Origin: Hydrogenophaga crocea
GTDB lineage: Bacteria > Pseudomonadota > Gammaproteobacteria > Burkholderiales > Burkholderiaceae_C
DNA: 64,000 nucleotides
Reading direction: 5' to 3'
Assembly: GCF_011388215.1 (NCBI RefSeq)
Contig: NZ_CP049989.1
Span: 2,604,001 to 2,668,000, forward strand
A program made the translations under genes and the position numbers. Below are positions 21,072 to 54,262 of this stretch, one piece after another. Each line of letters begins with the position of its first letter. The first letter of the stretch is position 1. The notes beneath the pieces are model-generated. The model worked only from the letters and a program-made list of their open reading frames with translations. It was not told the DNA's origin and made no database searches.

Positions 21072-21148
21072 GGCGATATAGCTCAGTTGGTTAGAGCGCA
21101 GCATTCATAATGCTGATGTCGGTGGTTCAAGTCCACCTATCGCCACCA
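21072..21148 (+). tRNA. tRNA-Met (CAU), elongator
   Basis: A complete cloverleaf: acceptor GGCGATA/TATCGCC, D-stem GCTC/GAGC, anticodon stem CAGCA/TGCTG with anticodon CAT at 21106-21108, T-stem GGTGG/CCACC with TTCAAGT loop, and encoded CCA at 21146-21148. The paired first acceptor base and lack of the three-GC initiator anticodon stem mark it as an elongator rather than initiator tRNA. A terminator hairpin follows at once. Confidence 0.95.
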
Positions 21149-51166: not shown

Positions 51167-51487
51167 TCAGTAAGCCAGCGCCTGGCCGGGCACGTCCACC
51201 GTGATGACCGGCTTGGCCAGGGCCGCGCTCGCGGCGCGCGCATAGGCCAGCGCCCATTCGCGGTGGCCCGGATCGCGGAAGTGGTCCTGCCCCGCCGCCT
51301 GCGCGATGCACAGGATCTTGTCGACCGTGAGCACCTTGCCCGTGGCGCGCAGCGGCTCGCAACCCATCTGCGTGAACTGCTCGTCGAGCCACTGCCTTGC
51401 CTGGTCGTGTGGCATGGGCTGTACCTCCTCGAGATCGATGCGGTAGGCGGCGGGCTCGCCCCAGGTGACGGTGACTTGGCTGCGCAT
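51167..51487 (-). CDS. Small hypothetical protein between aroG and mpl
   Basis: A 106-residue soluble protein I do not recognise. It starts 'MRSQVTVTWGEPAAYRIDLE', continues 'DQARQWLDEQFTQMGCEPLR' and ends 'AALAKPVITVDVPGQALAY'. A good GAGGAG site precedes the ATG at 51487, which is preferred over an upstream in-frame start at 51535. It is on the same strand as aroG, 84 bases downstream of it, so may share the attenuated transcript. Confidence 0.65.
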   Translation of the reverse strand: MRSQVTVTWGEPAAYRIDLEEVQPMPHDQARQWLDEQFTQMGCEPLRATGKVLTVDKILCIAQAAGQDHFRDPGHREWALAYARAASAALAKPVITVDVPGQALAY

Positions 51488-51571
51488 GGGGGCTCCTCGG
51501 CTGGTCTGCAATGTCGGGGCATTGTGCCCCGCCACCGCCGCGCGCTGCTCCGGGCAAGCCCCGATGCGAGC

Positions 51572-52699
<1,128 letters not shown>

Positions 52700-52739: not shown

Positions 52740-52774
52740 AAAAAAAACCGCCGGGCTTTGGGGGCCCGGCGGTT
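52740..52774 (-). terminator. Intrinsic terminator (attenuator) in the aroG leader
   Basis: On the minus strand a perfect 11-bp stem, AACCGCCGGGC (52774-52764) with GCCCGGCGGTT (52756-52746), has a 7-base loop and is followed by eight U (52747-52740). It lies 41 bases before the aroG start and after the leader reading frame, where it would stop transcription before aroG. Confidence 0.93.
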
Positions 52775-52795
52775 TCTGTTCGAGATTCTTGGCGC

Positions 52796-52857
52796 GCTTA
52801 CGACTTCGCCTCTCGTCCGCCGGGGACAGAGAACCAAAAGTAAAAAGCGAAGTAAGC
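52796..52857 (-). promoter_or_regulatory. Competing RNA pairings in the aroG leader (pause stem and antiterminator segment)
   Basis: Minus-strand GCTTACTTCGC (52857-52847, covering Tyr-Phe codons) pairs with GCGAAG plus TAAGC (52809-52796, 3-base bulge) around the leader stop, giving a 1:2 pause-type stem. CCCGGCGG (52824-52817), inside its loop, pairs perfectly with CCGCCGGG (52772-52765) of the terminator. Ribosome stalling on aromatic codons would favour the second pairing and so read-through. Confidence 0.7.
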
Positions 52858-52872
52858 GGAGCGCGAAACCAT
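52798..52872 (-). CDS. Aromatic-rich leader peptide of the aroG attenuator
   Basis: A 24-codon frame (ATG 52872, TAA 52798) just upstream of the aroG terminator. Residues 7-14 read YFAFYFWF: four Phe, two Tyr and one Trp in eight codons, in a genome where such a cluster is most unlikely by chance. This is the layout of pheL/trpL-type leaders, whose translation speed senses charged tRNA. An 8-base segment within codons 17-19 (52817-52824) is complementary to the terminator's 5' arm and can act as antiterminator. No Shine-Dalgarno is visible, but an extended -10 lies 7 bases before the ATG, so translation may be leaderless. Confidence 0.85.
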   Translation of the reverse strand: MVSRSAYFAFYFWFSVPGGREAKS

Positions 52873-52879
52873 GGCCGGC

Positions 52880-52888
52880 AATGTAGCA
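52880..52888 (-). promoter_or_regulatory. Extended -10 box for the aroG leader transcript
   Basis: TGCTACATT on the minus strand has the TG-n extension directly before TACATT and ends 7 bases before the leader-peptide ATG. No good -35 is present, as is common for extended -10 promoters. It lies in the 37-base gap after chrA. Confidence 0.45.
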
Positions 52889-52909: not shown

Positions 52910-54258
52910 TCAGCCGGCCAGACCGGTGGTTTTGAGCAACACACCGAGCAGCGCGCAGGCCGCGATCACGGCAATGACACCCAGCTTGAACCGCAGCAGG
53001 GCGAGCGCGGCCAGCGCTGCAATCAGCAGGGCCGCCACGTCCACCGGCCCGCCGGGCACGGGCCAGGCGATGTGCACCAGGAAGAACAGCCCCAGGCTCG
53101 CGATCACGCCCACCACCGCGGCCGTGATGGCCGTGAGCGGCGCGGTGAAGCCGAGCTGTCCGTGCGTGCGCTCCACCAGCGGCCCGCCCGCGAGGATGAA
53201 GATGAACGAGGGCAGGAAGGTGAACCAGGTGACCACGCAGGCGGCGAGCGCCGCGCCGAGAAAGCGCGCCTCTGGCCCCAGGACACCGGTGTGCCAGCCG
53301 CCCAGAAAGCCCACGAAGGCCACCACCATGATCAGCGGTCCGGGCGTGGTTTCACCGAGCGCGAGCCCGTCGATCATCTGCGGTCCGCTGAGCCAGCCGT
53401 GCTGTACCACCGCACCCTGGTACACGTAGGGCAGCACCGCGTAGGCGCCGCCGAAGGTGAGCAGCGCGGCCTTCGAAAAGAACAGGCCCATGGTGGGCAG
53501 CGTGCCCTGCAGGCCCTGCCAGGCCAGCAGAACGCCCATGGGCAGCAGCCACAACGCGGCGCCCGCGAACAGCACGCGCAGCAGGCGCGGCCGCGTGAAG
53601 CGCGCGTGCTGGGGCGTGGGGGTGTCGTCGTCGATCAGCGCGGGCGGGTGCTGGCTGCCGTCGGCCGCGGCGCGCCCGTGGCCACCCGCAGGCAGGAACT
53701 GCGCAGGCGCCACGCGCCCGCCCAGCCAGCCCAAGGCCAGCGCCGACAGCACCACAAGCGGAAACGGCAGCTTGAGCAGCGCGATCGCCACGAAGCTGCC
53801 GATGGCCAGCGCCCAGAGCCAGGGCGCGCGGCGCGGGCTGCGCAGCACACGCCCGCCGATGCGCCAGACCGCCTGCAGCACGATCGCCGCCACCGCGGGC
53901 TTGATGCCGTAGAGCAGGCCTGCGACCCAGCCGACCTGCCCGTACACCACATAGACCCAGCTCAGGCCGATGAGCAGCAGCAGCGAAGGCAGCACGAACA
54001 GCGCACCCGCCACGATGCCGCCCCAGCTGCGGTGCATCAGCCAGCCGATGTAGGTCGCGAGCTGCTGCGCCTCGGGGCCGGGCAGCAGCATGCAGTAGTT
54101 GAGCGCGTGCAGGAAGCGGCGCTCGCTGATCCAGCGCCGCTGCTCCACGAGCTCGCGGTGCATCACCGCGATCTGGCCGGCCGGGCCGCCGAAGCTGATG
54201 AAGCCGAGCTTGAGCCAGAAGCGCAGGGCCTGGCCGAACGGCACGGCCCCGCGCGCGC

Positions 54259-54262
<4 letters not shown>
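52910..54262 (-). CDS. chrA: Chromate transporter ChrA
   Basis: Inner-membrane CHR-family chromate efflux protein (450 residues), a long type with two homologous halves. The signature appears in the N half ('FWLKLGFISFGGPAGQIAVM', 'MLLPGPEAQQLATYIGWLMH') and again in the C half ('KAALLTFGGAYAVLPYVYQG', 'GETTPGPLIMVVAFVGFLGG'), joined by a His/Pro-rich linker. The start is a GTG overlapping the tldD stop (GTGA). It lies between tldD and the aroG leader; no chrB regulator is present. It may simply be a housekeeping CHR paralogue. Confidence 0.93.

Follow-up and report, generated by a model that had tools for sequence, protein, structure and literature searches.

An aromatic-rich leader and putative ribosome-mediated attenuator upstream of the DAHP synthase gene aroG in Hydrogenophaga crocea and its relatives

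The aroG gene of Hydrogenophaga crocea, which encodes DAHP (3-deoxy-7-phosphoheptulonate) synthase, is very probably controlled by a ribosome-mediated transcription attenuator. This had been proposed in a first-pass annotation of a 64,000-nucleotide stretch of DNA, referred to here as the window, in which a short open reading frame (ORF) rich in aromatic codons and a hairpin precede the gene. The observation of leader and hairpin is confirmed. The attenuator reading is supported by in-frame constraint on the ORF, by a terminator and an antiterminator that are kept in relatives and in part covary, and by the link to DAHP synthase; the observations presented here also include the anatomy of the region and the spacing of a promoter-like element. 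Positions are those of the window, and aroG, its leader and all elements of the leader lie on the minus strand.

Anatomy of the leader region

The leader ORF (52872-52798) has 24 codons, encoding MVSRSAYFAFYFWFSVPGGREAKS followed by a stop, and is predicted to be leaderless, with the RNA 5′ end at or adjoining its ATG. Its length, its frame and the residues YFAFYFWF at codons 7-14 (the aromatic run, 52831-52854) agree with the original claim, and the features claimed for the attenuator were found on the sequence where they had been placed. Within the run, conservation is highest at the three final codons, F-W-F. No other ORF of 10-45 amino acids in the window, on either strand, has six or more Phe, Tyr or Trp in eight residues, and none was found in 20 simulated sequences of 64 kb with its dinucleotide composition. 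The region has several of the parts by which ribosome-mediated attenuators are recognized: a small ORF ahead of the gene in which end-product codons follow one another, an intrinsic terminator between this ORF and the gene, a mutually exclusive antiterminator that uses the terminator 5′ arm, and a downstream gene (DAHP synthase) whose product belongs to the pathway of the amino acid presumed to be sensed.

The intrinsic terminator (52740-52775) is a GC-rich hairpin, with the stem AAACCGCCGGGC/GCCCGGCGGUUU, and a tract of eight U at 52747-52740. It had been described as CCGCCGGGC (52772-52764) paired with GCCCGGCGG (52756-52748), lengthened by A-U pairs and followed by eight U, and this description is correct; the hairpin before aroG was absent from the list produced by a simple terminator scan. 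Its 5′ arm, segment 3 (CCGCCGGG, 52765-52772), can pair either with the 3′ arm or with segment 2, the 5′ strand of the antiterminator (CCCGGCGG, 52817-52824), which lies inside the leader ORF. The eight-base complementarity reported between segment 2 (52824-52817) and segment 3 (52772-52765) is exact, and CCCGGCGG is identical to the terminator 3′ arm. Folding suggests that the antiterminator can be lengthened by pairing of CGAGA (52815-52811) with UCUCG (52785-52781), which lies upstream of the terminator; the antiterminator pairing claimed is present and, in the window, extends in this way beyond the eight bases first described. A candidate segment 1, UUCUC (codons 14-15; 52829-52833), has as candidate partner GAGAG (52810-52814), which was obtained from a fold of the isolated region.

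Genomic context of aroG

The aroG gene (51572-52699) encodes a type I DAHP synthase (TIGR00034, 536.9 bits; PF00793). It is the only type I DAHP synthase match in the H. crocea genome, in which no match was obtained to a type II DAHP synthase, to TrpR or to PF18024. We take PF18024 to be a TyrR-type domain. Upstream of the leader, on the same strand, lies a chromate-transporter gene (52910-54262; PF02417), and behind aroG there is a small ORF (51167-51535) that includes a stretch without Pfam match (51170-51490).

We had considered a single DAHP synthase per genome as a general reason for mixed sensing of the aromatic amino acids. This explanation was dropped because two type I DAHP synthase genes are present in seven of the nine genomes compared from the own family of H. 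crocea. The second copies at L300 and L301, in two own-family genomes, have no such aromatic leader.

Coding constraint and amino acid composition

Across 80 own-family leaders, the aromatic run has a pN/pS of 0.21 in frame, versus 3.9 and 0.9 when the frame is shifted, in an alignment based on nucleotides only. A peptide-anchored alignment gave 0.21 in frame, and 3.05 and 0.98 in the shifted frames; since the peptide anchor itself fixed one F, the count was redone on the nucleotide alignment, with the same outcome. The unanchored nucleotide alignment places F in 79/80, W in 75/80 and F in 77/80 leaders at the last codons of the run.

Phe codons occur in all 80 leaders, Tyr codons in 77 and Trp codons in 76, all three being present in 73, with means per leader of 4.7 Phe, 1.56 Tyr and 0.96 Trp codons; the ORF taken for each locus was the most aromatic one, which inflates these counts, and the negative control given below was chosen in the same way. 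Codon usage around the Trp codon (52839-52831) is also restricted: the Phe codon before it is TTT in 73/79 own-family leaders and that after it is TTC in 74/79. A third base so nearly fixed goes beyond coding constraint and probably means that the RNA of this stretch is conserved as well.

Among 64 order-level leaders from outside the own family, 34 combine Phe and Tyr, 23 have all three aromatic amino acids, five have Phe only and two have Phe and Trp. Trp is absent from the run in 39 of these 64.

Conservation of the RNA pairings

The terminator and the antiterminator are both kept in relatives. Paired bases occupy 96.7% of cells in the terminator, 27 of them with changes on both sides, and none of 500 shuffles was as high. 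The antiterminator is paired in 93.8% of cells with 21 two-sided changes in an alignment of 58 rows, and in 92.5% of cells with 34 two-sided changes in a larger alignment of 98 rows, no shuffle out of 500 being as high in either case. The core, GGCGG/CCGCC, hardly varies, so that the covariation rests on two flanking pairs; these are broken more often than any others (in 15 and 9 of 58 rows, and in 24 and 22 of 98). Near-invariance of GGCGG is expected if each of its bases must suit two partners. Within the leader ORF, the core is read in frame 0 in 57 of 80 own-family leaders, in frame 2 in 15 and in frame 1 in two, and is missing from six, which argues that at this place the RNA is kept and the peptide is not. 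In some genera (loci L012, L019, L025 and L026) the leader stops right after GGCGGA and the peptide ends in PGG or LGG; a terminating ribosome would there sit on segment 2. For the lower antiterminator helix, the mean of 4.46 compares with up to 3.84 for shuffles and up to 4.43 for swaps between genomes, and weakly suggests that this helix is kept.

On its own, the antiterminator region has no exceptional stability (29 of 200 shuffles equal it), and the fold shifts to the terminator once the 3′ arm is present, which implies that the switch must be kinetic. The minimum-free-energy fold obtained for the H. crocea sequence has -60.1 kcal/mol (z -4.25; 1/200 shuffles as stable). It includes the third pairing claimed by the first-pass annotation, between the aromatic codons and the stretch before the stop. 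This pairing stands for the window but is poorly kept in relatives: in 58 rows it is paired in 61.2% of cells versus 43.6-60.3% for slid versions of itself, and of 500 shuffles none was as high in cells paired, four in covariation score and 339 in two-sided changes. At best, it appears to be weakly kept.

UUCUC and GAGAG are commoner in relatives than this third pairing, both being present in 62/75 own-family leaders. They are paired in 85.9% of cells, but their covariation score does not differ from that of shuffles (244/500 as high), and the helix is no longer in the own-family set than after shuffling (5.17 versus 5.47). A protector hairpin of UUCUC and GAGAG at the codon run is thus a candidate structure and is unproven. 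A ribosome stalled at the final F-W-F codons, just before UUCUC, would cover this segment.

Promoter and transcript start

An extended -10 element, TGCTACATT/TGTGCTACATT (52880-52888), ends 7 nt upstream of the leader ATG. The element was first spotted by eye and then counted, with a pattern picked after the sequences had been viewed: T[GA]nTAnnnT ending 5-9 nt before the start codon is found in 68/80 own-family leaders, and in 200 shuffles it occurred in 0.42 on average and in three at most. This spacing suggests that the leader ORF is probably leaderless, with the transcript probably starting at its ATG. Shine-Dalgarno-like 4-mers were found in 0/80 own-family leaders, where shuffling itself leads one to expect only 2.85, and a plain sigma-70 scan gave no promoter. 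Among the 64 order-level leaders outside the own family, only 17 have the -10 element beside the start codon. In leaders from another class, a TATA-like box can be made out by eye at about this position.

Distribution among relatives

At least 80 named loci encoding a close AroG were listed, and 57 with an aromatic leader and a terminator entered alignment A1. The organisms represented include Hydrogenophaga, Polaromonas, Variovorax, Acidovorax, Limnohabitans and Ramlibacter, and also Burkholderia, Caballeronia, Massilia, Janthinobacterium, Cupriavidus lacunae and one Xanthomonas. Five loci were left out by hand: L021, which has almost no upstream DNA, L039, L062, L063, whose leader is the same as that of L058, and L065. 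At 18 of 80 listed AroG loci, no upstream ORF reached five aromatic residues in ten; these 18 include loci of Polynucleobacter, Thauera, Azoarcus and two Cupriavidus. One of these 18 aromatic-poor loci, from Comamonadaceae (L024:1290-1403), has His in place of several aromatic residues (VRYHFWHFH) and is possibly decaying. Alignment A2 comprises 98 hand-picked sources, with false matches left out.

A covariance model, R1, found matches (E up to 0.01) in 194/200 own-family genomes, 176 of the 179 good-quality ones among them. The own-family set used above consists of the window and 79 of 80 fetched loci, mostly the better-scoring among the listed places of these 194 genomes; L226 was dropped because its core is identical. 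At the same E value, R1 matches 90 of 300 genomes of the order and 14 of 274 of the class, and at E up to 1e-4 it matches 33 of 299 of the phylum, the larger searches applying stricter filters by which weak matches are lost.

The association with DAHP synthase extends through these searches. Of 96 order-level places, the 71 scoring at least 44.3 bits all have a DAHP synthase in the fetched stretch, and the 25 below this score comprise seven with and 18 without it. To judge by eye, these last 18 look like ordinary gene-end terminators and were rejected. Five of the 78 places with a DAHP synthase (L147, L151, L155, L160 and L171) have fewer than five aromatic residues in ten. In the class search, two matches beyond the own family, L258 and L259 from a single family, have both DAHP synthase and an aromatic leader, and ten weak places beyond the own family have no DAHP synthase. 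Seventeen phylum-level matches were fetched. One lies before pheS and the other 16 have a DAHP synthase; of these, 14, each located before the DAHP synthase gene, come from another class, and every one of their leaders holds Phe, Tyr and Trp (for example MITVATNYFWYFSYDSSLAAGGSRSI). Judged by codon content, three-aromatic leaders characterize the own family and this other class, and not the whole group.

The 30 best-scoring DAHP synthase loci fetched from the search across the class, used as a negative control, reached at most five aromatic residues in ten. The off-target match before pheS (L316) served as a positive control: it is a Phe-rich leader, with a peptide of 14 letters and without a Trp codon, and is presumably PheM. 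The conservation that the original proposal asked for was found: both the alternative pairing and the aromatic codons, which drift at their third bases, are kept across the family and beyond.

Proposed mechanism and alternative explanations

We propose the following sequence of events, in which leader translation, stalling, premature termination and the response to each aromatic amino acid are inferred. The RNA would start at or beside the leader ATG, and a ribosome would load on the leaderless 5′ end. When charged aromatic tRNAs are scarce, it would stall in the run, chiefly at the last codons F-Y-F-W-F, leaving CCCGGCGG free to pair with the emerging 5′ arm of the terminator, so that RNA polymerase would continue into aroG. 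With ample charged tRNAs, the ribosome would reach the stop codon, CCCGGCGG would be masked or re-paired, the terminator would form and transcription would end at the U tract. Shortage of any one aromatic amino acid may relieve termination, because codons for Phe, Tyr and Trp are all present in the run; sensing of all three is suggested on this basis. That Phe is sensed most strongly, a claim drawn from codon count alone, is not established.

Taken further, the attenuator may be a leaderless integrator of three aromatic amino acids, found in at least two classes, in which shortage of Phe, Tyr or Trp opens transcription of DAHP synthase and which, in genomes such as that of H. crocea with one DAHP synthase and no match to TrpR or to a TyrR-type domain, would do a job for which E. 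coli uses three feedback-regulated isoenzymes together with two repressors; we put the chance that this is right a little short of even. Lineages differ on Trp, and its absence from most leaders outside the own family lowers the odds of the three-aromatic reading. It also favours an alternative that we consider possible, if doubtful, namely that a genuine attenuator responds essentially to Phe alone, or perhaps to Phe and Tyr, and that the Trp codon, and possibly the Tyr codons as well, are passengers or kept for the sake of the RNA. The predominance of Phe codons in own-family leaders (4.7 per leader versus 1.56 for Tyr and 0.96 for Trp) points the same way, as do the 34/64 order-level leaders outside the own family with Phe and Tyr only and the 5/64 with Phe only, and the Corynebacterium AroR leader responds to Phe and not to Tyr according to the portions available of PMC11802643. 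This alternative has to account, however, for a Trp codon directly ahead of segment 1 in 75/80 own-family leaders, and for leaders of unlike sequence in another class that combine all three aromatic amino acids in 14 cases out of 14.

Two further explanations were considered. The hairpin might merely be the terminator of the chromate-transporter gene, which ends at 52910 on the same strand and whose transcripts it could also stop, with the aromatic ORF being due to chance or a relic. Purifying selection on the ORF, the promoter-like element 7 nt upstream of it, the paired segment 2 and the link to DAHP synthase make this highly improbable. The main role of the element might also lie in trans, with the released leader RNA or the peptide acting on other genes. 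A short leaderless RNA of about 133 nt with a strong terminator is predicted, resembling rnTrpL as described in the accessible part of PMC7298713; action in trans has been reported for rnTrpL and the peTrpL peptide in Sinorhizobium. Genera differ, however, in the frame in which the C-terminal part of the peptide is read, which speaks against conservation of a peptide function, and we regard a main role in trans as very unlikely. Attenuation of aroG in cis is the reading retained in the comparison that follows.

Comparison with known systems

DAHP synthase is the entry point to the aromatic amino acids. According to the portions of PMC5343134 that were available, DAHP synthase genes in gammaproteobacteria are under the control of TyrR and TrpR. 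A leader that is near-universal in one family and present in another class offers a simple, testable account of control without TyrR and TrpR. It would also be a new entry of the Rfam type. Trp_leader, Phe_leader and other Rfam leader families gave no match at gathering score in the window, and seven weak matches in the window include no amino-acid leader family. The sole Rfam match in the window at gathering score is a tRNA gene (21072-21145). No aroG leader in Burkholderiales was found in the literature among the matches listed, which comprised titles and the beginnings of abstracts, so that older predictions may exist. The main text of a survey of premature terminators (PMC2965389) does not name aroG, aroF or DAHP.

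The aroG leader is similar to trpL of the E. coli trp operon and to Sinorhizobium rnTrpL in combining a short ORF rich in product codons with a terminator and an alternative pairing. In the available parts of PMC7298713 and PMC10117765, the Sinorhizobium trpL attenuator RNA is described as leaderless, beginning at the ATG. In contrast to trpL, which senses a single amino acid and precedes trpE, the aroG leader mixes Phe, Tyr and Trp codons and precedes a DAHP synthase gene. It also resembles pheL and pheM in having a Phe-rich leader and a terminator, while their target genes, pheA and pheST, are different; attenuation of both is mentioned in the portions seen of PMC11802643. Attenuators were predicted before tyrA operons (Merino website; Table 7 of PMC1173090), including operons which start with DAHP synthase, for instance aroAI-alpha-Y > tyrA of two Vibrio species. 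These predictions concern other genes and lineages, and the part of that paper available describes neither a leader peptide nor sensing for them.

A closer precedent is the aroR leader of Corynebacterium glutamicum, compared here by description only, which likewise specifies an aromatic leader peptide before a DAHP synthase gene. The source study is reportedly that of Neshat et al. 2014. In the parts of PMC11802643 and PMC4046766 that were available, this leader (Phe-Tyr-Phe) precedes aroF and acts by ribosome-mediated attenuation. It belongs to a different phylum and is reported to respond to Phe and not to Tyr, with Trp unmentioned in those parts.

The ilvGMEDA and ilvBNC systems likewise have a single leader whose codons represent more than one end product of a branched pathway, with branched-chain amino acids there and aromatic ones here. 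The ilvGMEDA leader contains codons for several branched-chain end products; the ilvBNC leader is named in the available portion of PMC4046766. The drift between Phe-Tyr-Trp and Phe-Tyr leaders among relatives provides a natural test of the integration of several amino acids by one leader. The mechanism proposed is already known, with trpL, pheL and Corynebacterium aroR as precedents; what appears to be new is the target of this leader family in Proteobacteria, its run of three aromatic amino acids, its spread and its leaderless form.
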